From the NCBI GenBank assembly GCA_017649605.1, contig JAGCGL010000036.1, positions 1 to 45,993 of the forward strand: a stretch of DNA of 45,993 nt. Reading direction: 5' to 3'. Position 1 is the first letter of the stretch. Each line of letters begins with the position of its first letter. The notes under the pieces were generated by a model. The model saw nothing but the letters and a program-made list of their open reading frames with translations. It did not search any database and was not told the DNA's origin. Positions 32,413 to 45,678 of the stretch are shown here, piece after piece. Source of the DNA: Spirochaetia bacterium. GTDB taxonomy: Bacteria > Spirochaetota > Spirochaetia > CADAEX01. A program made the translations under genes and the position numbers.

Positions 32413-32636
32413 TAGATGTACAGAAACTTCTTTACGATATCTGCGAGGACAAGAGAGTGTATGAGGATGGCATAGACCTGATAGATTCAGGCATCCTGGA
32501 CTCGTATGCGTTCATCGAGCTTTTCTCTCGCCTCGAGGACTACGGAATTATCCTGCACCCCACCCGCATAGACAGAACAAAGCTGCACACTGTACACGGT
32601 ATCGAAGAGCTTATCAAGCAGAGCAACCAGGCGTGA
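32409..32636 (+). CDS. DltC-like acyl/aminoacyl carrier protein
   Basis: A 75-residue acidic helical carrier protein. Ser32 in GILDSYAFIEL is the expected phosphopantetheine attachment site, matching LDS in DltC. It would accept the aminoacyl group from the upstream DltA-like enzyme, whose gene it overlaps by 4 nt. It marks the last GC-balanced gene before the AT-rich island. Confidence 0.82.
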   Translation: MIDVQKLLYDICEDKRVYEDGIDLIDSGILDSYAFIELFSRLEDYGIILHPTRIDRTKLHTVHGIEELIKQSNQA

Positions 32637-32647
32637 TGCGAACTTTG

Positions 32648-32677
32648 TTGACATAATGTTTAGCTGAGAAGTATAAT
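32648..32677 (+). promoter_or_regulatory. Consensus promoter of the AT-rich membrane cassette
   Basis: TTGACA (32648-32653), an 18-bp spacer and TATAAT (32672-32677) match the sigma-70 consensus at all twelve positions. The first gene starts 23 nt downstream. A second TATAAT at 32691-32696 is only 4 nt before that ATG and may be fortuitous. Confidence 0.7.
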
Positions 32678-32700
32678 ATTTAACAATAGATATAATAATT

Positions 32701-33183
32701 ATGTTTAAAGATATATACAATTGGATTACAGCCATATCAACTTTTTGTGCATTCTGTGTTGCCTGGTACCAACTTAATAAAATAAAGAGAACAGAATCCA
32801 GCCGCTTCCTACTTGAATTAAGAGAGTCTTTTAGCGAAGAAAAAAGATGGAAGATACATTGTGCTATAAAGAACAATACCACTACTGATGCTATTTATCT
32901 TCAAGAAAACAAAGCAGATGTCGATGACTACTTAGGATTGCTGGAAATCTGCGAAGAAATGCTAGAAAGGAAAACATTATCATTGGATTCATTCAAGAAC
33001 TTTTATCACTACCGGTTAAAGTACATCTTGAGAAATGATTTCATGATTAAAAAGCTTTTAGATGATGATATTTCTTATTGGCCAAAGCTTTACAAACTGA
33101 TGAATCGTTTTCCAGATCTGAAAGATACTTATTATAAAACGCAGGAGCAAATTTTATTTTGGGAGAGAATAGAAGATGTGTGA
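32701..33183 (+). CDS. Membrane-anchored protein, first gene of the ExbBD-like cassette
   Basis: A 160-residue protein with one N-terminal membrane segment (about 7-25). A soluble, charged, mostly helical domain follows (RESFSEEKRWKIHCAIKN, then DVDDYLGLLEICEEMLERKT and FYHYRLKYILRNDF). It vaguely resembles DUF4760-type proteins, but I cannot confirm this. The base composition is AT-rich like the following genes. It has no clear Shine-Dalgarno site. Its end overlaps the next gene by 8 nt, indicating coupled translation. Confidence 0.7.
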   Translation: MFKDIYNWITAISTFCAFCVAWYQLNKIKRTESSRFLLELRESFSEEKRWKIHCAIKNNTTTDAIYLQENKADVDDYLGLLEICEEMLERKTLSLDSFKNFYHYRLKYILRNDFMIKKLLDDDISYWPKLYKLMNRFPDLKDTYYKTQEQILFWERIEDV

Positions 33184-33880
33184 AGAAAGAAATGATAAAA
33201 ACAAAGGGAGTTTTGTAATATCTCTGTTTTGGGGTCTATTAGCAATTAGCATCAGTATCTACTTTTTTAAATGGGTGCTTAATGATATTTTTTATTATAT
33301 CGTTATAATTGCTGATTTTAAAGGAATTGAATGGCTTGCTTCTGTATTAAACGTAATTTGCTATATTTTTACAACAATTGTTTTTTTAATAATCTTTAAA
33401 AATATATTAAATTATGGATTAAAAATAAGCAATCTCTATGGAAATCAGTTTGGACATTGGGTAGAAGAACTAAAAGAAAAAAACCGACATCTTAGTACAA
33501 TAAAAAAAATTAAACATTCTTATCCCCCAGAAGAAGCAGAAAAGAAATTAAATGAACTTTATGAAGCTTATTCAGAGGATAATTATTCAAAAATTAAACT
33601 GATAGAAATAGAAGTAGCCATCAAAAATACAGAAATAAAAACTAGTATCTTATGGAGTATTATTCCAGCATTATTAGTATTAATAGTCTTATTAGTTATT
33701 TCAGATGATTTATCATCACTCGATAGATTTGATCAAATATTTATTGCAATATTTATTGCTTCTAGTATTATTATAACAATTGCCTTTATAATTGATTATC
33801 TTGATGGTGCAAAAAGAAAAAAATTATCTTTAAAAGCAAAAGATCCAAATAAACAAAAATCTGAGGAAGAAAAACAATAA
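33176..33880 (+). CDS. Four-segment membrane protein with central helical domain
   Basis: A 234-residue protein that I do not recognise. Two hydrophobic segments (about 12-45 and 52-78) are followed by a charged helical region of about 75 residues (EELKEKNRHLSTIKKIKHSY to IEVAIKNTEIKTS). Two more hydrophobic segments (about 158-176 and 185-207) and a lysine-rich tail follow. Lysine codons are almost all AAA and base composition is far more AT-rich than in the genes left of 32640. It is the second gene of the cassette. Confidence 0.7.
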   Translation: MCEERNDKNKGSFVISLFWGLLAISISIYFFKWVLNDIFYYIVIIADFKGIEWLASVLNVICYIFTTIVFLIIFKNILNYGLKISNLYGNQFGHWVEELKEKNRHLSTIKKIKHSYPPEEAEKKLNELYEAYSEDNYSKIKLIEIEVAIKNTEIKTSILWSIIPALLVLIVLLVISDDLSSLDRFDQIFIAIFIASSIIITIAFIIDYLDGAKRKKLSLKAKDPNKQKSEEEKQ

Positions 33881-33927
33881 TCATATATTTTTGATTGATA
33901 GATTATTTTGAATATGGGGTACTAATA

Positions 33928-34530
33928 ATGGATGAAATAATAAAAAATATCTGTGAGGTGCTTAGCAAATCTCTTAATATTATTATACTTATAGCTGGAA
34001 TTGGAGAATTAGTTCTTCTTTGCATCTCATGGCATAAACTATATAAATCCAAGAATGCTTTTATGAAACTATCCAAGGCCACAACAAAAGAAGTTAGGGA
34101 CAAACAGGTAGATCATACAAGTACAAAAACTACCATAACAGTAATAAAGCTAGATTGGGCTGCTTTTGATAAATTAAAAGAAGAATACCAGTCAATTAAT
34201 GGAACATACTCAATTTATTCCCTAATTATTCAATTGTTTACTCTATTGGGTATCCTTGGAACCGTTGCAGGGTTATTCATTGCAATGCAAAACTGGTCTG
34301 ATTTAAGCAAGGCCACAGATATGTATAATGGAATAAAATTTGCTCTTTCTTCAACAGTATTAGGTATTATTTTTGCTGTTATATATAAGATTTTTGATAT
34401 CGTATTATGCTCACAATACATTAATTACATTGATGATGAGATTGAACGATTTGATAAAAACTATTCAGAAGCAAAAGATTCTTTAATAACCAACAATTCC
34501 AATATTCACGAGGTTGTTTCAGGTGAATAA
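33928..34530 (+). CDS. ExbB/TolQ/MotA-family proton-channel-like protein
   Basis: A 200-residue protein with three membrane segments (about 17-35, 97-119, 137-160), the ExbB/TolQ topology. TM2 contains FTLLGILGTVAGLFIAM and TM3 ALSSTVLGIIFAVIY, matching the family signature including the pore-lining threonines in both helices. In ExbB, TolQ and MotA such subunits form a pentamer that passes ions around a dimeric partner. The ATG at 33928 is preferred over a TTG at 33895 because GGGG lies about 8 nt upstream. It overlaps the ExbD-like gene by 8 nt. The long loop between TM1 and TM2 (about 60 residues) would be cytoplasmic. Confidence 0.8.
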   Translation: MDEIIKNICEVLSKSLNIIILIAGIGELVLLCISWHKLYKSKNAFMKLSKATTKEVRDKQVDHTSTKTTITVIKLDWAAFDKLKEEYQSINGTYSIYSLIIQLFTLLGILGTVAGLFIAMQNWSDLSKATDMYNGIKFALSSTVLGIIFAVIYKIFDIVLCSQYINYIDDEIERFDKNYSEAKDSLITNNSNIHEVVSGE

Positions 34531-35077
34531 GCGGAAAAGAAGTTTTACTGAAGAAATTAACTTAACTCCCCTTCTGGATGCCTTATTTTCTATATTATTT
34601 ATTGTTATGTTATCTGGAACTCAAAGTGAAAGAGTTATGCAAGAAGAGGCGACAAAACAACTTAATTCATCAGTGTCGGCACTAGAAGAAAATAATCAGC
34701 AGCTCAAAAATGACATTAAAACCTTACAAAATATAAATACAACCATAAAGATGTTCGAGGCAGATGCAATAATTATCACCCTAGAGAATATAAATGAAGA
34801 TGGGAGATATAAATTAAAATCTTTTGTTGGACAAAATAAAGAACCTTTTTTTGATGATCTGGATCTTGGTTCGGATATCCAATTAATAGAAGATTCAATA
34901 CCTAGAAAAATTGGGCTGACCATTGGAGAATCAAAATCAAGAAGACCAGTATATATTGTTTTTCATTGCGATATTAAAAACATTCTTACCAAAGAATTAT
35001 TTTCCATTAGGAATATGCTTGAAACATTAGAAAATGAACATAGCGAAGTTTTTTGCAAAATAGTTGAAGAGGAGTAA
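34523..35077 (+). CDS. ExbD/TolR-like stator protein with coiled coil
   Basis: A 184-residue protein. The N terminus EEINLTPLLDALFSILFIVML (split here as EEINLTPLLDA and LFSILFIVML) is the ExbD/TolR signature, with the ion-carrying aspartate at residue 19 inside the single membrane helix. A coiled coil (about 35-75, ALEENNQQLKNDIKTLQNIN) and a C-terminal alpha/beta domain (about 80-184) follow. The C-terminal domain does not look like the standard ExbD fold. Start GTG at 34523 is preferred to TTG at 34514 because GAGG at 34510-34513 then has normal spacing. It follows the ExbB-like gene with overlap, the usual pairing. Confidence 0.78.
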   Translation: MNKRKRSFTEEINLTPLLDALFSILFIVMLSGTQSERVMQEEATKQLNSSVSALEENNQQLKNDIKTLQNINTTIKMFEADAIIITLENINEDGRYKLKSFVGQNKEPFFDDLDLGSDIQLIEDSIPRKIGLTIGESKSRRPVYIVFHCDIKNILTKELFSIRNMLETLENEHSEVFCKIVEEE

Positions 35078-35079
35078 TT

Positions 35080-35523
35080 ATGAGTATAGTTTTTTGTATT
35101 GTCGCTGGAATTATTTTTCTTATTACTAGTATTATTTTAAATATAGTATCCAGAAAACCAATAAGAGCTTTTTTTGAAACTATTCTATTAATTATTATTT
35201 TAATATTAATTATTGGATGGGGATTTGGTGGCGGCAAAGGCAAAGAAATATTAAACGGAAGCAAGCGACAAGTTGAACAAACACTCAAAGAAGATGATCC
35301 ATTTGAAAACCAAAAGGAAATTATTATTCAACTTAACGGCTCTAACATTACCATAAACAATAATATAGTTGACTCTGAAGAACAATTAAAAGAATATGCA
35401 AAAAAATATTATAATGGAACACGAAAATTCAAATTAAATGGGGAAGAAGGATTATACAGCAATTATAAACTTGTGAAAAAAGTTTTTAAAGAACTTGCAA
35501 TTCCTTTAGACGAAGAGAATTAA
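35080..35523 (+). CDS. Two-segment membrane protein with ExbD-periplasmic-like domain
   Basis: A 147-residue protein. Two hydrophobic segments (about 2-23 and 33-52) are joined by a short basic loop. The C-terminal 70 residues run EIIIQLNGSNITINNNIV, then ENEEQL-type helix, FKLNGEEGLYSNYKLVKKVF and KELAIPL. This pattern (strand, NG turn, strand, helix, strand, helix with a final GI/IP) is that of the ExbD/TolR periplasmic domain, but the Asp-bearing TM helix of ExbD is missing. The same domain recurs in the next gene. GGAG lies 6 nt before the ATG. Confidence 0.6.
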   Translation: MSIVFCIVAGIIFLITSIILNIVSRKPIRAFFETILLIIILILIIGWGFGGGKGKEILNGSKRQVEQTLKEDDPFENQKEIIIQLNGSNITINNNIVDSEEQLKEYAKKYYNGTRKFKLNGEEGLYSNYKLVKKVFKELAIPLDEEN

Positions 35524-35547
35524 GTTCTAGTTTTGTTGGACGATGAT

Positions 35548-36153
35548 ATGGAAATAATAGTTAATACGCTGGCAACAATAATTGGATTTAATATTGTTTT
35601 ATTTATAGTTCATAGCTCTAGATGGCATGGAGAAATTAATAAAACAAAAGTAAAATTTTTATCTTTTATTACTATAATAATTATTGTTTGTTCCTACTAT
35701 TTATTCAAAACCATGAATTATGAACATCTTCAGGAAGTTGCATCTATTGTATGTGGTACAATACTTGGCATGGGTTTTTTCTATTATTCAGTAGAATTAT
35801 CTCTTGATAAAGTTCTTTTTTTTATTTCTTTTATTTTATTACTTGTTTTATTGAAATTCGGAGTCGGGTTTAATAGTTATATAACAAATAATAAACAATC
35901 CTTAGACGCAATATCTACACAAGAAATATCTAATACGAAAGGACAAGAAGAAATAACAATACTTATGTTTGGTGATCGTATTTTCGTTGATGGTAATCCT
36001 ATTACTTCAGAAACTGAATTTAAAGACATCGTAAAAAAATTTCATCATGATTCCAAAACTTTTGTTTTAAAAGAAACAGATAGCGCCACAGTGCATACTT
36101 ATAGACAAGTAAAAAAGATTTTTAATGAACTATCAGTCCCTATTAAAGAATAG
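35548..36153 (+). CDS. Four-segment membrane protein with ExbD-periplasmic-like domain
   Basis: A 201-residue protein with four hydrophobic segments in the first 115 residues. Its C-terminal domain (EITILMFGDRIFVDGNPI to VKKIFNELSVPIKE) aligns along its whole length with that of the preceding protein: both have an initial EI.I strand, a D/N-G turn, an acidic helix, an F.L strand and a Y..VKK.F.EL..P ending. The start is uncertain: ATG at 35548 or TTG at 35533, neither with a strong ribosome-binding site. It is the last gene of the cassette; 36154-36388 is AT-rich and holds no gene that I can see apart from the next promoter. Confidence 0.6.
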   Translation: MEIIVNTLATIIGFNIVLFIVHSSRWHGEINKTKVKFLSFITIIIIVCSYYLFKTMNYEHLQEVASIVCGTILGMGFFYYSVELSLDKVLFFISFILLLVLLKFGVGFNSYITNNKQSLDAISTQEISNTKGQEEITILMFGDRIFVDGNPITSETEFKDIVKKFHHDSKTFVLKETDSATVHTYRQVKKIFNELSVPIKE

Positions 36154-36376
36154 TTTTTATATTTCTTCGTTTTTACTCTTCTTCCATATGCAACATGACT
36201 AGCACTTTAAAAACTATTATTTAATTTTTACTAAACAAAAAACAACATAGGGTACAAAACAGATGTTAAAATAATTAATTACCCCAACCATATCAGATAG
36301 GACTTGTCAATAAACTTATTTATTCTATCACTGTTTTTAGTAAAATAATTCTACTTCTTTTTTTTGAAAAAAGTTT

Positions 36377-36382
36377 TATAAT
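36377..36382 (+). promoter_or_regulatory. -10 box of the first large LRR gene (leaderless)
   Basis: TATAAT ends 6 nt before the ATG at 36389, and no ribosome-binding site is present. A -35 hexamer is not convincing. Confidence 0.4.
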
Positions 36383-36388
36383 CAAACC

Positions 36389-37834
36389 ATGCTCTATAAT
36401 CCAGCTAAGCACATAGTGGAAGAAACCAACGATGGCCTTGCTATCTTTGACAAGGCAAGGACTACGCTGATTAAGTTTACACCGAACGAGGCTACCACAT
36501 GCTATGAAATACCAGACGGGATAACCACCATAGACAGGGCGGCATTCAAAGATTGCAACAAACTGGAAGAGATAACAATACCAAACAGCGTGTCAGCAAT
36601 TAAAGCATTTGCATTTTCGAACTGCTCAAGTTTATCGGCCATAAAACTGCCTAAATGCTTGAAGAAAATCAGCGAAGGTACTTTCAAAAGGTGTATTAAT
36701 TTATCAGATATAGTAATACCAAACAAGGTGACTTCTATAGGCAATCAAGCTTTTGCCAAGTGCAAGAATTTAAAAACAATAAAGCTGCCAGATACAATTG
36801 AGACAATTGGAATCAAGGCTTTTGACGGTTGCGAAAAATTGCGCGATGTCATACTGTCCAAGAATCTGAAAGCAATTACAAAAGAAATGTTCAGCGGTTG
36901 CAAAAGCATTACTAATATCACCCTACCAGGAAGTATTAAAACTATCAGAAGCGACGCGTTTTTTCTTTGTACCGATCTGAGGGAAATTATTATCAAGAGT
37001 GGCGTTGATGCCATTGAAGATGAGGCCTTTAATTCCTGCGAGAACCTCTCGACTATCTATATTCCTGACAGCTTAACTCATATCGGCAGCGATGTATTTG
37101 ATGATTGTCATAATCTTAAAGAAATAATAGTTGATGAGAACAATCCGCAATACTCCTCTATGGATGGCGTTCTCTACAATAAAGACATGACTTCCCTTTT
37201 GGTTTGTCCCCCAAGTAAAGAAACTATCACTATCCCAGACAGTGTTAAGACAATCACTATGTATTCTTTCTGGGCTTCAGTAATTGAGGAAATCAAAATA
37301 TCTCCAAATGTATCAGAAATTGAGCCTCATTCATTCGAATCTTGCTATAATCTAGAGAAAATAACTGTGGATAAAACGAATCCGGTCTACTGCTCTATTG
37401 ACGGAGTTCTATTCAGCAAAGACAAGTCTTGTCTTTTATTCTTTCCCCAGGGGAAAAAGGGAAGTTATTATATTCCCAATACAACTAATACTATTAAACA
37501 CGGTGCTTTTACCGACTCTAAACTGACTGACATTATTATTCCAAACAGTGTGAAATATATTGAATACGATGCATTTTTCTTGTGCTTCTATCTTCATCAT
37601 ATTATTATTCCGCAAAGTGTAGTCTCTGTTGGGGAGAATGTATTCTGCAGCTGCAGAGAACTTAAGACAGTAACCCTTAAAAGCCTCATACCTCCGCTTT
37701 GTGAAAAGCAATCAGAATTATTCTTTGATTGCATTAATCTGCAGTCTATTTTTGTTCCAAGCAAAGCTGTAGAAGCCTATAAAAATGCTCCTGGCTGGAA
37801 AGAATACGCAAGTTTTATAACCCCAGAACATTGA
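36389..37834 (+). CDS. BspA-type leucine-rich-repeat protein 1
   Basis: A 481-residue protein built almost entirely of Treponema/BspA-type repeats of about 23 residues (pattern IPxSVxxIxxxAFxxCxxLxxI). One example is AFSNCSSLSAIKLPKCLKKI. The first 35 residues form a cap (HIVEETNDGLAIFDKARTTL) shared with the next gene. Two spacer modules of the DGVLYNKDMTSLLVCPPSK type interrupt the repeats. The C terminus is a short cap ending in the PSKAVEAYKNAPGWKEY pattern. No signal peptide is visible, unlike BspA or LrrA, which are surface proteins that bind host ligands or other bacteria. Base composition is intermediate between the AT-rich island and the rest. Confidence 0.9.
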   Translation: MLYNPAKHIVEETNDGLAIFDKARTTLIKFTPNEATTCYEIPDGITTIDRAAFKDCNKLEEITIPNSVSAIKAFAFSNCSSLSAIKLPKCLKKISEGTFKRCINLSDIVIPNKVTSIGNQAFAKCKNLKTIKLPDTIETIGIKAFDGCEKLRDVILSKNLKAITKEMFSGCKSITNITLPGSIKTIRSDAFFLCTDLREIIIKSGVDAIEDEAFNSCENLSTIYIPDSLTHIGSDVFDDCHNLKEIIVDENNPQYSSMDGVLYNKDMTSLLVCPPSKETITIPDSVKTITMYSFWASVIEEIKISPNVSEIEPHSFESCYNLEKITVDKTNPVYCSIDGVLFSKDKSCLLFFPQGKKGSYYIPNTTNTIKHGAFTDSKLTDIIIPNSVKYIEYDAFFLCFYLHHIIIPQSVVSVGENVFCSCRELKTVTLKSLIPPLCEKQSELFFDCINLQSIFVPSKAVEAYKNAPGWKEYASFITPEH

Positions 37835-37862
37835 TATCCCCCTGCCCTATCGGCCGACTTTA

Positions 37863-37871
37863 TGCTATACT
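37863..37871 (+). promoter_or_regulatory. Extended -10 of the second LRR gene (leaderless)
   Basis: TG at 37863-37864 and TATACT at 37866-37871 form an extended -10 that ends 6 nt before the ATG at 37878. No Shine-Dalgarno sequence is present. Confidence 0.45.
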
Positions 37872-37877
37872 TAATCT

Positions 37878-39638
37878 ATGTTGTATAACCCTGACAAGCA
37901 CATACTAGAAGAAACCGATGCAGGTCTTGCTGTCTTTGATAAGGCAAGGACTACACTGATCAAGTTTACGCCGAACGAGACCACCACATGCTATGAAGTA
38001 CCGAAAGGAGTAACCACCATAGGCCGGGCTGCTTTTAAAGACTGCAAGAAGCTGGAAGAGATAGTTATACCTGACAGCGTTACAACTGTCGAAGACTATG
38101 CTTTTTGCAAGTGCAGAAAGCTTATGACTATGACTCTGCCTGCGGGGATAAGCCGTATTGGCGCCTATGCTTTTTATATGTGCGAGAACCTTGATTATAT
38201 AACTCTTCCCCAAAACCTACTCTCAATTGGAGAAGGGGCTTTTTCATACTGTATCGACCTTGGGGCAATAACCTTCCCGGACAGTCTGAATACTATAGAA
38301 ACAAAAGCATTTTGTGGCTGTCATTCTCTGACGGAGATCTATTTGCCTCCAAAACTGACCCACATTGCTAAAGAATCTTTCTCCTGTTGTACCAATCTTT
38401 TTTACATAGAACTGCCATACGGCCTTGAAACTATAGGAGAGTCTGCCTTTGAATACGATTCAGGTCTGTACAGGATACATATACCAGGCAGTGTCACTGA
38501 CATAGGTAAAAAGGCTTTCCGTTTCTGCAATGAGCTTTCTGAACTCAGGCTCTCAAGTGGGATAACTATAATTCGGTATGAGACATTTGCGGGTTGTGGG
38601 AAGCTTAACAAGATTAATATTCCAGAAGGTGTTGTTACTATCGGAAAGGAGGCTTTCTCAATGTGTTTCAGACTGATGCAGGTTACACTCCCCGAAAGTC
38701 TTCGCACAATAGGAGGAGGAGCTTTTTACCGGTGTGGAAGCCTTCCAAAAATATACATTCCAAAGAATGTCGATTCTATTGGACATGGAGCCTTCAGTGC
38801 CTGCTTTGACCTTAAGGATATAGAGGTGGATAGAGATAATCCTGTTTATCAAACACGCGATGGTGTTCTATATAAACAGCATACTATAATTGCTTTCCCT
38901 GGTGGTAGAAATGACGAGACCTTTGCTGTAGCCGAAGATGTCACTGATATAAGTTCAAGCACATTTATAGGTTGCCAGAATATTAAGCATATCTACATTC
39001 CGCATAGTGTCACCAACATCGAGAAAGAGGCATTCAGCGGCTGTTATAGTCTTGAAAGCATTACTGTAGATGATAGAAATAAAAAATACCATTCCACAGA
39101 TGGCCTTCTATTTGATAACAACGGAACGCTAGTGGCAAGTCCAATTGGTATAACCGGAACTGTCATAATTCCGGAGGGAACAAAAACCATCGGATACAGG
39201 GCTTTTTTAGGCTGCAGGCTTTCCAGAGTCAAAATTGCAGATAGTGTGGAAACTATTGAGGAAGGGGCTTTCTCCTGCTGCGATAACCTTACAGTTATAA
39301 CAATTCCTGGTCATGTCTCTTTGATTAAAGAGGGGTCTTTTACAAATTGCCAAAACCTAAAGACAATCAATCTTGCATCCGAATCCCTTATTATTGAGAA
39401 CCATTCTTTATCCTGGAGTGGCTTACTTACTAAAGTTTATATATACAGCGAAAACCCACCAAAATATCTCGGGGCCTCCAGTATATTTGCTAACTGTCCG
39501 AATCTTAAATCCATCATCATTCCGAAAAAATCTCTGGAAAAATACAATAATGCTCCTGGGTGGAAAGATTATTCAAACCATTTTGTCACAAAGAAAATGG
39601 ATCCGAAGGATCATCCCTGGGATTTTATAAAGGCTTAA
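37878..39638 (+). CDS. BspA-type leucine-rich-repeat protein 2
   Basis: A 586-residue paralogue of the preceding protein. The first 65 residues are nearly the same (HILEETDAGLAVFDKARTTL, then FKDCKKLEEIVIPDSV), and the DNA of this part is clearly alike, so the two arose by tandem duplication and then diverged. The body consists of about 18-20 LRR_5 repeats with two DGVLY/DGLLF spacer modules. The C-terminal NAPGWKDY cap is also shared. No signal peptide. It overlaps the convergent gene at 39625 by 14 nt. Confidence 0.9.
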   Translation: MLYNPDKHILEETDAGLAVFDKARTTLIKFTPNETTTCYEVPKGVTTIGRAAFKDCKKLEEIVIPDSVTTVEDYAFCKCRKLMTMTLPAGISRIGAYAFYMCENLDYITLPQNLLSIGEGAFSYCIDLGAITFPDSLNTIETKAFCGCHSLTEIYLPPKLTHIAKESFSCCTNLFYIELPYGLETIGESAFEYDSGLYRIHIPGSVTDIGKKAFRFCNELSELRLSSGITIIRYETFAGCGKLNKINIPEGVVTIGKEAFSMCFRLMQVTLPESLRTIGGGAFYRCGSLPKIYIPKNVDSIGHGAFSACFDLKDIEVDRDNPVYQTRDGVLYKQHTIIAFPGGRNDETFAVAEDVTDISSSTFIGCQNIKHIYIPHSVTNIEKEAFSGCYSLESITVDDRNKKYHSTDGLLFDNNGTLVASPIGITGTVIIPEGTKTIGYRAFLGCRLSRVKIADSVETIEEGAFSCCDNLTVITIPGHVSLIKEGSFTNCQNLKTINLASESLIIENHSLSWSGLLTKVYIYSENPPKYLGASSIFANCPNLKSIIIPKKSLEKYNNAPGWKDYSNHFVTKKMDPKDHPWDFIKA

Positions 39639-41157
39639 CAAAATTGCCTTCCAGTAGGTTATCGCTCAGCTCACCGTTGATATCATACCGGGCCAATGTA
39701 TAACCATCGTCTGTAATGTATTCATCATCCTTTCTGTCTATAACCATCCATCCCACAAAAATATAATTGTACTCAGACTTTGGGTATAACTTCTGGACTG
39801 CATCGATGTATGACACATACTCCTCATATTTTCCTGTGTTGAAGTTATAGAAACACTTTGTCCACTGCAGGCTGGGGACTATCTCTTTCCTAAGTATAAA
39901 CAGGTCAAACCCCTTGTCCCGCCATCTCTTCCAGTACTCCTTGTTACCTGTCGTAACAATCGAATCAAAATAGCCGTCATAATAATCCTTGCGCTTCAGA
40001 TATTTTTCTCGGGCGCAGAATGTATATATGCCTATAAGGCGATCCACTGCTTTGATGCACGTCTCCTTATCCGATGTATCAAGCGCAGGTAGCGAGTCTA
40101 TATATTCCTTGTGCTGCGGCGTAATAATCTTGAATGGCATCTGGTTTGCCGTGATCTCATCCACAGCCGGAATACGCCTGTCGCCCGCCGGGATAGCTGG
40201 TTTTACCTCATTCAGGAAAGCCACAATCTTTTTTCTGTAAGACAAGAGTTCCATATATTCCTTGTGGTTTGAGGGGCCGCGGGTATGAGCACAGTCTTCT
40301 ATTGCCCCTGTTGTGTCGTCATACTTTTTGAACACAGAACGGTAAAAATCATGGGCATTCTCAAGCTCTGCAGCTGTGAATTTTTTCTGCAACCGGAATG
40401 ATCTCAGAAGCGCTCTCTGTTCCTTATAATCGACAAACTCCAGAGCCATAGGATTCTTCTTAAGCTGTTTGGTGAGCCTGTTGGTGGGTATACTGCTCCC
40501 TTCTACTTTTTTGTTGATGTACCGCGCCGAATGCCAAAGGAGATAGGTCATAAAACAGTCACTTACCAGCTTCTCCTCGCATTCCATAAGTTCTGTAAGC
40601 CTGCGGTATTCCTCTATCTGCTTTATGAAATAGCGGCTTACTCCCAGGTTGTCCCGCTTCTGAACCAGCTTTTTATGGATTTTCTTAATAATTTTGGGGA
40701 GCCACTGGCGCAGGATGAAAGTATCTATATATTCCTTTGCCTCCTCATACATCTTTTCTTTGTTCCAGGAACTTACCTTTAGGCTCTGGTTCAGGAATTT
40801 ATTAAGGTAGACAATGTAGCCTCTTTTCAGCTTTATCTCGTGGGCTTTGTTAGAGATTCGGTAAATACCATCCTTTCCATATAACCGCCGGAAATATTCG
40901 AGAAAGGCATCAAAGGCCTTGTCATTACCAACCATCGCCCTCAGGTCCTGCTCACGCCTTGAGCCGTGACGACTGAATCCGTCCAATGCCGCAGAGCGTT
41001 CCTGCTGGACATTTATATAGCCTCTTTTCTTCTTGGTATGAACACACTTTTTATAAAAGCTCACATAAAGGGAAACGGCTTCTTTATAGCGACCATTAAT
41101 TACATCGTCCCGGAATGCAGGGCATTGCTGGATAAAGAACTCAGAGAACTTGCTCAT
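39625..41157 (-). CDS. Unrecognised 510-residue soluble protein
   Basis: I do not recognise this protein. It is basic, rich in Lys, Arg and Tyr, mostly helical in appearance, and without signal peptide or membrane segment. Segments of possible interest are NVQQERSAALDGFSRHG near residue 50, a lysine-rich helical region (about 150-185, LPKIIKKIHKKLVQKRDNLG), and a C-terminal beta-rich part (YNYIFVGWMVIDRKDDEYI). It lies on the opposite strand between the two LRR pairs. Its length and codon use support a real gene. A link to the LRR proteins is only positional. Confidence 0.7.
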   Translation of the reverse strand: MSKFSEFFIQQCPAFRDDVINGRYKEAVSLYVSFYKKCVHTKKKRGYINVQQERSAALDGFSRHGSRREQDLRAMVGNDKAFDAFLEYFRRLYGKDGIYRISNKAHEIKLKRGYIVYLNKFLNQSLKVSSWNKEKMYEEAKEYIDTFILRQWLPKIIKKIHKKLVQKRDNLGVSRYFIKQIEEYRRLTELMECEEKLVSDCFMTYLLWHSARYINKKVEGSSIPTNRLTKQLKKNPMALEFVDYKEQRALLRSFRLQKKFTAAELENAHDFYRSVFKKYDDTTGAIEDCAHTRGPSNHKEYMELLSYRKKIVAFLNEVKPAIPAGDRRIPAVDEITANQMPFKIITPQHKEYIDSLPALDTSDKETCIKAVDRLIGIYTFCAREKYLKRKDYYDGYFDSIVTTGNKEYWKRWRDKGFDLFILRKEIVPSLQWTKCFYNFNTGKYEEYVSYIDAVQKLYPKSEYNYIFVGWMVIDRKDDEYITDDGYTLARYDINGELSDNLLEGNFVKPL

Positions 41158-41339: not shown

Positions 41340-43547
41340 ATGAAAAAATTTAGAGACGACGACAAAAACGTAGTAGTGAACGGTGTGACATTCAGCGAAG
41401 ACCTGACAGAGCTTATCAGGTATCCCGAGGACAAGAAAGGAAACTTCTACAGCGTGCCAGATTCTGTGGGAAGCATAGAAGATGGTGCATTCTTCGGATG
41501 TAAGGCTCTGACCAACATCTACATTCCCGACACAGTCTACCACATAGGCTGCGGAGCATTTAAGGGATGCGACAACCTCAAGGAAATCATGCTGGATGGG
41601 AGCAATAAGCACTACAAGAGCATAAACGGGCAGCTCTGTGACAAGAAGGGCAAAAGCCTTATGGACAAGGTATCTCTGCCCGACATCGACTATGTTATTC
41701 CTAAAGGAATAACTGAACTTACAGGATTCGACAACTACACAATGGAAGATGATAATAACTACTGCTACAAGCAGAGATCTGGCGAGGACGGCATAGACGT
41801 ATATGGCACAGTCAGATCGGTCACCATTCCCAAAAGGGTGACTGGTATACCGCACAACCTGTTCTACATCTTTGATAAAGTCCAGTCCATCGAAGTGGAT
41901 CCTAAGAACCCCAGCTTCAAGAGCATAGACGGTGTGCTGTTCAGCAAGGACGGCAAGCGCCTTGTCGCCTACCCTGCCGCAAAGCCGGGCAGCGAGTACA
42001 CTGTGCCAGATGGCGTGACAGTGATAGGCGAAAGAGCCTTTTCCGACTGCGAAGCCATTGAGACAGTCAAACTGCCGGCCAGCATCGACCGCATAGAGCG
42101 GTACGCATTCCACGCCTCTGGACTGCGGCGGTTTGAGCAGCCGAAAGCTCTTAAACGGATTTGCGCCAACACTTTCTCTTTCTGCTGCAACCTGGAGTCG
42201 GTAGAGCTGAAAGAGGGGCTCAGAGTGATAGACGACTCTGCCTTTGACACCTGTTCTGCCCTTGAGGCAATCGAACTCCCCGACAGCCTTGAGATCATAG
42301 GAAAGTATGCCTTCGATTGCTGCGCCCTCCGTTCCATAAAGCTGGGACCCAAGGTTCAGACTTTGATAGACATGGCTTTCGCCAGCAATAACTTGGAATC
42401 GATAGAGTTTGGCAAGGGAATCACCTTTATAGGCGACAACGCATTCTATAACAACCCGATAAAGACGCTCGACATTCCAGACAATGTGAAAGTCATTGAC
42501 CGCGAGGCATTCGGCAACTGCGAGAACCTGACCAAGGTACATATAGGCAAAGGACTCAGCTACATCGACTCCTGTTCATTCAGCGGCTGCAAGAAACTGG
42601 CAAAGGTGACCGTGGACAGAGAAAACCCGAAATACTGCGGCTTCAACAGCATCATCCTCGACAGATTCACATCGGAGATTCCGCCGCTGAACAAGGAAGA
42701 ACCAGTACACCCGACGTTTGAGGGACTTAGGCCGGTAATCACACTGCTGCCGGAGGGGCTGGTTTATCCAAACAGGCTGTTCTACGAGGAGGACGGAGTG
42801 CTGTTTGTGGGCAAGAAGCTTTTCAAATACCCGGCAGAAAAGAAGGATGCCAGCTACACTATCCCCGACTGGGTGGATGACATTGAGCCCCATGCCTTTA
42901 AAGATTGCCTGCACCTTGAGGAAGTGACCCTGTCGCCAAATATCGGGTACCTTATAGGACAAGCATTCCAGGAGTGCAACAGCATAAAAAAGGTGGTGAT
43001 TCCGAGCGGAGTGACCCATATAGGTCAAAAGGCATTTGAGAGCTGCAAGAACTTGCGTCAGGTGGTTCTGAGCCCGACTCTGGAGGGGATAGGGAAAGGA
43101 GCTTTCGCTTACTGTGAGAACCTGCGGGACATTGAGCTTCCCGATGGACTTGAGGTGATAGGCATAGGTGCCTTCTTCCACTGCAGCAAGCTTAAGACCA
43201 TAAAGATCCCAGGAAGCGTCAGGGTTATTCAGGGTGATTCCTTCTGCCAGTGCACTGCCCTTAAGTCGCTGGTCATAGAAAATGGTGTCACCATGATAGA
43301 ACGCGATGCTTTTGAGGGCTGCGAGAACCTGATCGAGGTGCGCATCCCAGAAAGCGTGACCCAGTTTGAGTCGGGGGTCTTCGCCGGATGTACCAAACTT
43401 AAGAAGATAATCTTGCCGAACACCTTTCATTCAGAAGAAGGGCTTTTTTCAAAGTGCGAGAACCTGTCTGAGATAACATTTGCAGACGGCGAACCGGCCA
43501 CACGGCTCTCTGACTGGATTTTCACCGATTTCCGCATTGACCTCTGA
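41340..43547 (+). CDS. BspA-type leucine-rich-repeat protein 3
   Basis: A 735-residue BspA-like protein. Its N terminus (VVVNGVTFSEDLTELIRYPE) differs from those of proteins 1 and 2 but matches protein 4. After two repeats there is a stretch of about 80 residues without repeats (about 85-165, DNYTMEDDNNYCYKQRSG). Then follow many LRR_5 units, DGVLFSKDGKRLVAYPAAK and DGVLFVGKKLFKYPAEK spacers, and a C-terminal repeat block. No signal peptide. GGAG lies 5 nt before the ATG. The next gene begins 25 nt downstream with its own AAGGAG, so both are one operon. Base composition is GC-balanced, unlike proteins 1 and 2. Confidence 0.9.
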   Translation: MKKFRDDDKNVVVNGVTFSEDLTELIRYPEDKKGNFYSVPDSVGSIEDGAFFGCKALTNIYIPDTVYHIGCGAFKGCDNLKEIMLDGSNKHYKSINGQLCDKKGKSLMDKVSLPDIDYVIPKGITELTGFDNYTMEDDNNYCYKQRSGEDGIDVYGTVRSVTIPKRVTGIPHNLFYIFDKVQSIEVDPKNPSFKSIDGVLFSKDGKRLVAYPAAKPGSEYTVPDGVTVIGERAFSDCEAIETVKLPASIDRIERYAFHASGLRRFEQPKALKRICANTFSFCCNLESVELKEGLRVIDDSAFDTCSALEAIELPDSLEIIGKYAFDCCALRSIKLGPKVQTLIDMAFASNNLESIEFGKGITFIGDNAFYNNPIKTLDIPDNVKVIDREAFGNCENLTKVHIGKGLSYIDSCSFSGCKKLAKVTVDRENPKYCGFNSIILDRFTSEIPPLNKEEPVHPTFEGLRPVITLLPEGLVYPNRLFYEEDGVLFVGKKLFKYPAEKKDASYTIPDWVDDIEPHAFKDCLHLEEVTLSPNIGYLIGQAFQECNSIKKVVIPSGVTHIGQKAFESCKNLRQVVLSPTLEGIGKGAFAYCENLRDIELPDGLEVIGIGAFFHCSKLKTIKIPGSVRVIQGDSFCQCTALKSLVIENGVTMIERDAFEGCENLIEVRIPESVTQFESGVFAGCTKLKKIILPNTFHSEEGLFSKCENLSEITFADGEPATRLSDWIFTDFRIDL

Positions 43548-43572
43548 CAACAAAAAAAAGAAGGAGAAAAAA

Positions 43573-45678
43573 ATGAAAGAAACAAAAGACATGAACAAAA
43601 ACATTGTATTGAACGGCGTCACATTCAGCCCTGACATGACCAAGCTCATCAAGTATCCGGAGAAACGGAAAAGCTCCTTCTACTACATACCGGATGATGT
43701 AAAAAGCATTGAAAGCTACGCCTTTGACAACTGCAAGAATCTGACCACACTGGTTATCCCGGCCTCATTAGAGACAATAGAGATGGCAGCATTCCACGGA
43801 TGCGACAACCTTAAAGACTTCCTCCTGCCAAAGGTATGCTCGAGATTCCTCTTTAAGAACGGCAGGTTGTACAGTCTGCCCATGGGAGACCGGCCTGAGA
43901 GCGAGAAAAAAGACATAACCACAAGGATCTTTTATCCCGACATCGATTTCTGCATCCCCGAAGATATGAACACAATGCCAGATTTCAAGACGTATTATCC
44001 AGATGGCTCCATATTCGGGCGCGGAGATAAATACTCAGAACTGGAAATTTATGGCAATGTGCGAAACGTAGTAATACACAAGAATGTCACCGACCTTTCA
44101 GGGGGAATGTTCTTTGGTTTCAAAAATCTGAAGCAGTTCACTGTGGATGACGGAAATCCTTTCTTCAAGTGCGTGGACGGTGTCCTGTTCTCCAAGGATG
44201 GTACAGTACTCTACTGCTATCCCAGTGGGCTTGATGCAACGACATACAGGGTGCCGGACGGAGTCAGGACAATAGGCGATTCTGCCTTCTTGGGCAACTC
44301 AAGCCTGGAGGTTATCATCCTGCCGGACAGCGTGACTGAACTGGCAGAATATGCCTTTTCTGGCTGCACGAACCTGGACGATGTGGTTCTTCCACAGGGG
44401 CTTAAGACTATAGGTGACAATGCTTTCGATGGTTGTTGGGGTATTGGAGAATTTGTCATACCTGATTCGGTGACAAGCATCGGAAAAGAAGCATTCAATG
44501 GAAGCGAAATAGAAGGAATAATCCTGCCCTCGGACATCGACAGTATAAGAGAGGGCACATTCCAGGATTCCTGGCTGGAAAACATAGGGATAGGTCCTAA
44601 TGTCAAATACATAGATGACTATGCATTCAGCGGTTCCAATATTTCCGAAATAACAATTCCAGATTCGGTAGAGGCAATCGGAGAGGGCACATTTGAAGGA
44701 TGCGAAAATCTGACAACAGTATATATCGGAGCCGGGGTAACTTCCATCAGGTCATCAGCGTTCAAGGACTGTGACAATCTGGAAAGAATTGAGGTGGATC
44801 AGAATAACCCCAAATATACCAGTGTGGACGGAATACTCTTTGACAAGCTGACCGGCTCTCTTGAGGAATATCCAAGGCAGGCTCCCATGCCCAGCAGTTT
44901 CATGAAAAAGGTGGATGGCGTATTCTTCTGGGGAACCGTACTCATGGAGTATCCCGAGGACAGGCCTGATACCAAGTATGTTATTCCCGAATGGGTCAGT
45001 GATATCTTCCCCTATGCCTTTGCAGGATGTGAGCATCTTGAGGAGGTGGTGTTCCCCAAGGATCTGGATTCTATACCTATCAGTGCATTTGCTGACTGCC
45101 AGAGCCTTAAGCGGATAAAGCTGACTGGCAACATTTGGAAGATAAATTTCCGGGCCTTCAGAGGCTGCACCAGTCTGGAGGAGATTGAGCTGCAGGATTC
45201 GCTTGAAGTTATCGGGGAAGAAGCCTTCAAAGACTGCTCAAGCCTTAAGGAGATACATCTGCCGTCGGGGCTTAAGCACATAGAGAAAAGGGCATTCAGC
45301 CGGTGCACAGGATTGAAGGAACTGATTGTTCCGAACACGGTCGAGGACATCGGTGACAAGGCTTTCAAGAACTGCAGGGGGCTTACATCGATCACCCTCT
45401 CAAATGGCCTGAAAAAAATCGGAAACGAGGCGTTCGCAAGATGCTACAGGCTTACAAAGATAGTTGTACCCGAAAGCATCTGCACTATAAAAGAACTGGC
45501 TTTCTCTTACTGCAAGAGACTTAAGTCGATCACCATACCTCTTGCAGACGATATTGAAGAAGGCATCCTGAGAGGATGCAACAAACTCGAGGATGTAAAC
45601 ATAGCAGAGATCAAGGGAGAGTACTTCTCCACCAAGTTCTACGACACCCTCTTTGACGAGGATGAAATACCCTTCTGA
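43573..45678 (+). CDS. BspA-type leucine-rich-repeat protein 4
   Basis: A 701-residue paralogue of protein 3 (IVLNGVTFSPDMTKLIKYPE at the N terminus, the repeat-free insert at about 85-165, DGVLFSKDGTVLYCYPSG and DGVFFWGTVLMEYPED spacers). About 20 LRR_5 repeats follow, for example AFSRCTGLKELIVPNTVEDI. The start at 43573 has AAGGAG upstream and follows protein 3 closely; a longer frame reaching back into protein 3 is not supported. No signal peptide is seen. The gene ends before two hairpins. Confidence 0.9.
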   Translation: MKETKDMNKNIVLNGVTFSPDMTKLIKYPEKRKSSFYYIPDDVKSIESYAFDNCKNLTTLVIPASLETIEMAAFHGCDNLKDFLLPKVCSRFLFKNGRLYSLPMGDRPESEKKDITTRIFYPDIDFCIPEDMNTMPDFKTYYPDGSIFGRGDKYSELEIYGNVRNVVIHKNVTDLSGGMFFGFKNLKQFTVDDGNPFFKCVDGVLFSKDGTVLYCYPSGLDATTYRVPDGVRTIGDSAFLGNSSLEVIILPDSVTELAEYAFSGCTNLDDVVLPQGLKTIGDNAFDGCWGIGEFVIPDSVTSIGKEAFNGSEIEGIILPSDIDSIREGTFQDSWLENIGIGPNVKYIDDYAFSGSNISEITIPDSVEAIGEGTFEGCENLTTVYIGAGVTSIRSSAFKDCDNLERIEVDQNNPKYTSVDGILFDKLTGSLEEYPRQAPMPSSFMKKVDGVFFWGTVLMEYPEDRPDTKYVIPEWVSDIFPYAFAGCEHLEEVVFPKDLDSIPISAFADCQSLKRIKLTGNIWKINFRAFRGCTSLEEIELQDSLEVIGEEAFKDCSSLKEIHLPSGLKHIEKRAFSRCTGLKELIVPNTVEDIGDKAFKNCRGLTSITLSNGLKKIGNEAFARCYRLTKIVVPESICTIKELAFSYCKRLKSITIPLADDIEEGILRGCNKLEDVNIAEIKGEYFSTKFYDTLFDEDEIPF

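Follow-up and report, generated by a model that had tools for sequence, protein, structure and literature searches.

What is a compact, AT-rich cassette of six genes, built around an ExbB/ExbD-like pair, doing in the chromosome of a spirochaete? The question is raised by a contig of a Spirochaetia bacterium (JAGCGL010000036.1, assembly GCA_017649605.1; 45,993 nucleotides, all of it analysed here as the window), in which the genes, named A to F, follow one another on the plus strand. The original prediction, made from the DNA letters alone, was an ion-driven ExbB/ExbD-type machine of unassigned purpose, and our analysis supports it: protein C matches the family of motor wheel proteins and D keeps the aspartate-bearing helix. 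On balance, we favour the reading that the cassette was acquired and encodes a 5:2 motor, driven by ions, whose ExbD-type domain is detached and whose work is probably done on the cell envelope.

Gene C (33928..34530, plus strand) encodes an ExbB/TolQ/MotA-like protein of 200 residues with the three membrane helices expected from the prediction. It matches PF01618 (MotA_ExbB) with an E-value of 1.3e-12 and 48 bits, well past the curated cut-off of 22.9, and its profile also matches solved MotA chains. Two threonines are invariant in 24 of 24 aligned sequences, namely Thr112 in helix 2 (LLGILGTVAGL; codon 34261..34263, plus strand) and Thr143 in helix 3 (ALSSTVLG; codon 34354..34356, plus strand). 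These are equivalent to Thr148 and Thr181, the pore threonines of ExbB (PMC12215075). No second PF01618 protein was found in the host genome besides C.

Gene D (34523..35077, plus strand; 184 residues, GTG start) encodes the putative axle, and its description as an ExbD/TolR-like protein with a membrane aspartate was likewise borne out. Asp19 (codon 34577..34579, plus strand), the residue expected to carry the ion, lies in the motif NLTPLLD and is invariant in 27 of 27 relatives. The ExbD model PF02472 matches the window D alone weakly (0.013), and across the family it matches all 27 members, the best at 1.1e-7. The best match of the D profile among PDB sequences is TolR (6e-5), confined to the membrane-helix region, and a profile-profile comparison of the first 30-45 residues with TolR/ExbD gave 84%. 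The ExbD profile aligns with residues 1-43 of D only, and the soluble domain is unmatched. In the predicted model (mean predicted local distance difference test score, pLDDT, 84.6) a single helix spans residues 15-81 (pLDDT mostly 80-92), of which about 45 residues outside the membrane are predicted to be long and stiff, and a soluble domain of the order β-β-β-α-β-α-β follows. In ExbD and TolR, by comparison, the membrane helix is followed by about 20 residues of unstructured linker (PMC12905483). Foldseek searches with the soluble domain of D ranked RNase H-like folds first (best 2.5e-4), none of them convincing, and the predicted fold was not Pal-like.

A domain of the ExbD type is carried by the next protein. 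Gene E (35080..35523, plus strand; 147 residues) encodes two membrane helices, a linker and, at residues 80-145, a domain like the periplasmic part of ExbD/TolR. The E family has no Pfam model; its layout is a membrane helix with a glycine-rich end, an acidic linker and then the C-terminal domain. This domain is predicted with high confidence (pLDDT about 90-97), and its top PDB folds in Foldseek are the ExbD/TolR periplasmic domains 8pek, 8vgc and 5by4, with 8p9r at rank 6; against 8vgc and 8p9r the TM-score on the target is 0.67-0.72, at a root-mean-square deviation of 2.7-3.0. Among the members aligned, the membrane helix of E has neither an aspartate nor the ExbD membrane motif. Because D keeps the membrane helix of ExbD and E carries a fold like its soluble domain, the two halves of ExbD appear, on these models, to be divided between D and E. 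Gene F (35533..36153, plus strand; 206 residues, four membrane helices) has an E-type C-terminal domain and is a paralogue of E (BLASTP 2e-14), a relationship that the earlier reading had overlooked together with the ExbD-like domain of both proteins. A hidden Markov model (HMM) of 32 ExbDs from the host's class aligns to the domain of F in the same register, and the sequence support for the E and F domains as ExbD-like is thus weak but consistent (hhalign for E, the ExbD HMM for F).

Relatives of D were found by a scan that was steered by its membrane motif and whose search alignment included artificial short peptides; tblastn with the actual D sequence of the window, followed by alignment, confirmed every hit. 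The scan gave 27 relatives with 27-42% identity, full length except for one cut by a contig end, all of them from Lachnospiraceae, Oscillospiraceae or unnamed Bacillota metagenome-assembled genomes (MAGs) plus the isolate NC2008; L088 and L089, both weak hits, were not counted among them. Within this one scan C, D and E are adjacent in that order in 26 of 26 sufficiently complete loci, and the E family is present as one strong copy in each of the 15 genomes searched. The trio is likewise retained in more distant members, of which L106 and L107 have two tandem E genes, as with E and F in the window. The six genes had been proposed as one conserved set; only C-D-E is kept together, and A and B were absent from every relative locus examined. 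The six-gene cassette is therefore not a conserved unit. Its conserved core is C-D-E, which it has in common with Clostridia of the gut and to which A and B are add-ons. With the window C as sole query, no close relative was found in plasmids, phages, IMG/VR or GTDB contigs, or in two samples of about 395 genomes each from the host's class and phylum, and an alignment of the ExbB motif returned one weak viral contig and nothing else.

C-D-E is likely to be an ExbBD/TolQR-type ion-driven motor. By homology with such motors, five C subunits would form a wheel in the membrane and two D helices the axle, and H+ or Na+ passing Asp19 of D and Thr112 and Thr143 of C would turn the wheel against the axle. 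D would reach beyond the membrane as a long stiff helix topped by a soluble domain unlike that of ExbD, with the ExbD-type domain placed on E and separately anchored in the membrane. E, together with its copy F, may act as the output or anchor partner that, on movement of the axle, contacts peptidoglycan or a target in the envelope. The cassette would have been acquired by a double-membraned host from a donor resembling Lachnospiraceae, and would there be transcribed from a host-type promoter in a variable site that is partly occupied by defence genes.

Several observations weigh against this reading. Foldseek returned modest E-values for E, 3.4e-3 at best, and the sequence match between E and ExbD is weak (hhalign 0.035, a single comparison). 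The order of strands and helices in the soluble domain of D is the same as in E, and on the models the domain of D could be a highly diverged ExbD domain and not a replacement; the D and E profiles do not match each other, which speaks against this. Also, a missing TonB is not proof, because the host MAG is 92.7% complete; no TonB_C domain was found in that genome, and one is present in 4 of 11 family members. A bolder proposal is that the trio represents a separate class of motor, with the ExbD axle and soluble domain split on two proteins and working without an outer membrane, which later moved to a double-membraned host and was expanded with A, B and F. This is possible, and we would sooner doubt it than assert it.

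The cassette consists of six consecutive open reading frames at 32701-36153, all open and with junctions of -17 to +14 bases, in line with the overlapping or nearly overlapping genes originally described. Alignment of the relatives amended the gene starts to ATG 33928 for C, whose reading frame opens at TTG 33895, and to GTG 34523 for D. Gene A (32701..33183, plus strand; 160 residues) encodes a weakly hydrophobic N-terminus followed by a soluble region, and with a highest 19-residue hydropathy of 1.24 it is the one gene for which the description of all six products as membrane proteins is insecure. Gene B (33176..33880, plus strand; 234 residues) encodes four predicted membrane helices and has 24.7% G+C. 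Neither A nor B has a detectable homologue, and profile searches with Pfam, PADLOC and stator models gave nothing above cut-off. The low G+C of the cassette was confirmed at 28.3% against 47.8% in the remaining window (single genes 25-33%), and the counts of 18 and 33 in 60 bases quoted earlier for the cassette and its surroundings were exact on recount. Windows of the length of the cassette average 46% G+C, and the minimum, 27.6%, is located on the cassette itself. A promoter of the form TTGACA-18-TATAAT (32648..32677, plus strand), with 12 of 12 consensus bases, lies in the 64 bases that separate dltC from gene A. An element 88% identical over 34 bases is found in the sibling genome G003 upstream of VanW/dlt genes (L043:4372-4405), and because of this close copy the cassette is probably transcribed from a host-type promoter.

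Sequence comparisons support the view, already taken in the original prediction, that the cassette was horizontally acquired. It is absent from the remaining 10 genomes of the host's family, and a tree of C and D places the window, with 99% support, within a clade formed by Lachnospiraceae together with related Clostridial MAGs, the exact sister of the window being supported at 54% only. The host encodes Omp85 (3.4e-23) and is therefore double-membraned. The variable chromosomal site (32614..39625) is bounded on the left by the 3' end of dltC and on the right by a 510-aa gene (39625-41157), and it holds different AT-rich genes in the siblings G002 and G003. Synteny with G002 (83-94% identity up to 32614) ends at the end of dltC, past which G002 carries a sacsin-domain gene of 26% G+C (PADLOC TmtA 7.4e-17; Pfam SACS). 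On another contig, next to the homologue of the 510-aa gene, G002 has a DrmD helicase (780 bits) along with a further sacsin protein, and in G003 the right edge is occupied by other AT-rich genes. In both siblings a contig end interrupts the site, and its continuity there is therefore inferred. The AT-rich G002 cluster of a DrmD-type helicase and two large sacsin-domain proteins, spread over two contigs (L042:1-1674 and L047:7567-15340), looks from its sequence like a DISARM- or sacsin-type defence cluster. An integrative element was considered and rejected, as no flanking repeats were found and no integrase was seen.

BspA-type LRR_5 genes lie at 36389-37834, 37878-39638, 41340-43547 and 43480-45678. 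The first two are paralogous in DNA (75% over 276 bases) and are not beside the 510-aa gene in G002. These two (36389-39638) were rejected as part of the cassette: they have 38-41% G+C, follow after a 235-base gap, belong to a local LRR cluster and are not with the trio elsewhere.

The relatives of the trio have neighbours of several kinds. In the distant loci with tandem E genes, a tRNA_anti-like (OB-fold) protein follows the two E genes (L106:5395-6402 and L107:9886-10842), and L107 has macro-domain and vWA genes upstream as well. A single frame of 889 residues with histidine kinase, response regulator and DegV domains adjoins the trio in L064 (4580-7246). A GGDEF-EAL protein is encoded directly upstream of C in L071 (4819-7188), with similar open reading frames in L072 and L073, hinting at a link to cyclic di-GMP in that one lineage. 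In Lachnospiraceae NC2008 an FRG-domain gene is immediately upstream of the trio (L078:6348-7130).

One rival explanation is anti-phage defence of a Zorya-like kind, in which the motor would sense envelope damage and A, B or F would kill the cell or block the phage. The helicase and the sacsin/TmtA-like ATPases at the site in G002 fit this view, as do the other AT-rich genes there in G003 and the FRG, macro or vWA neighbours in a few distant or single relatives. In addition, the best PADLOC matches of C are ZorA models (1.1e-6), and the D family is patchy: at E<=1e-10 it was found in 8 of 299 genomes sampled from the family to which NC2008 belongs and in 5 of 250 from another Clostridial family. 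However, the cassette lacks a ZorA tail and a Pal-like ZorB domain and encodes neither a helicase nor a nuclease. A scan of the 106 genes closest to the trio in Clostridial loci, from which near-duplicate loci had been excluded, gave mainly genes of metabolism and transport and few strong PADLOC matches, in contexts that are ordinary and varied. In the host's genus the location of the cassette is suggestive of defence, but in view of the Clostridial neighbours we rank work on the cell wall or envelope above it: the former is a guess to which we give nearly even weight, and the latter, as a guess about the motor's work and as a full alternative, is unlikely.

An alternative that we consider equally doubtful is that E is a force transducer like TonB or TolA, and that C-D-E is a Ton-like system with which single-membrane bacteria pull on a target in the cell wall or at the surface. 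E always follows the ExbB-ExbD pair and is bitopic in nearly all relatives, where its N-terminal helix is joined by a flexible acidic linker to a small C-terminal α/β domain, the layout of TonB. However, the domain itself is like ExbD/TolR and not like TonB or TolA, and there is neither a linked partner receptor nor a downstream gene that the loci share.

It is a little less probable again that E and F just add a second and a third ExbD-like subunit, on the pattern of the tandem-ExbD operons of spirochaete type, which would make the cassette nothing new in principle. Tandem ExbD pairs are common in the host's class, and the E and D models agree in the order of strands and helices, yet both members of such tandem pairs keep the membrane motif that the aligned E helices lack, along with its aspartate. 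That the pair in the host is what is left of a Ton system, degenerate or without function, as Clostridial Ton-like systems have been called likely non-functional (PMC12204202), is very improbable given six open frames, key residues invariant in 24-27 relatives and an intact promoter.

How does the favoured reading, an ion-driven motor with a detached ExbD-type domain, compare with known systems? Wheel and axle are members of an established motor superfamily. The cassette shares with the Ton system (ExbBD-TonB) an ExbB-like wheel with conserved threonines, an ExbD-like helix with the essential aspartate and, on E, an ExbD-like soluble domain. It differs in having the halves of ExbD on two proteins and a rigid helical shaft in place of the unstructured linker, in a host genome without TonB, and its core occurs mainly in single-membrane Clostridia. 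With TolQR it shares the closest PDB sequence to the membrane helix of D, which is TolR, and the match of the E domain to TolR 5by4, but it has the extra protein E, and the cassette and the flanking genes examined contain no TolA, TolB or Pal. With no partners found, a standard Ton or Tol set was rejected. This agrees with the earlier statement that TonB, Tol, flagellar and Zorya partners are missing, which held for TonB_C in the genome and for the others among the cassette and flanking genes examined.

Zorya ZorAB resembles the cassette in its PF01618-type subunit and in the variable site with defence genes in a sibling. Zorya was nevertheless rejected on three defining features: C ends shortly past helix 3, whereas ZorA models with their long tail span 461-692 positions; no cassette protein matches ZorB or has its Pal/OmpA-like domain; and no match to the effectors ZorC, ZorD or ZorE was found in the cassette or the two downstream genes. 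The MotAB stator and GldLM belong to the same motor superfamily, and the stiff shaft of D recalls GldM, but there are no nearby flagellar or gliding genes, no flagellar stator model reaches cut-off in the cassette proteins and these have no OmpA-like domain.

Motors of the ExbBD type are regarded as machines of double-membraned envelopes, and the working of Gram-positive homologues has been called untested (PMC9389320). We did not find in the open-access papers searched a three-gene Clostridial motor with an ExbD-like domain on a separate, always adjacent protein. A compact trio with a conserved partner in culturable Lachnospiraceae such as NC2008 opens the Gram-positive question to direct test. 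If the ExbD domain does act in trans to the axle, ion-coupled rotation and target binding, which are fused in ExbD/TolR, would be separated, and such a split motor would help to explain how motors of this kind are coupled to their loads. The 2022 review cited above described ExbB proteins in S. aureus and C. sporogenes with no ExbD subunit and a function called untested (PMC9389320); unlike these, the cassette combines its ExbB-like wheel with a cryptic ExbD-type axle and a third partner in one operon.

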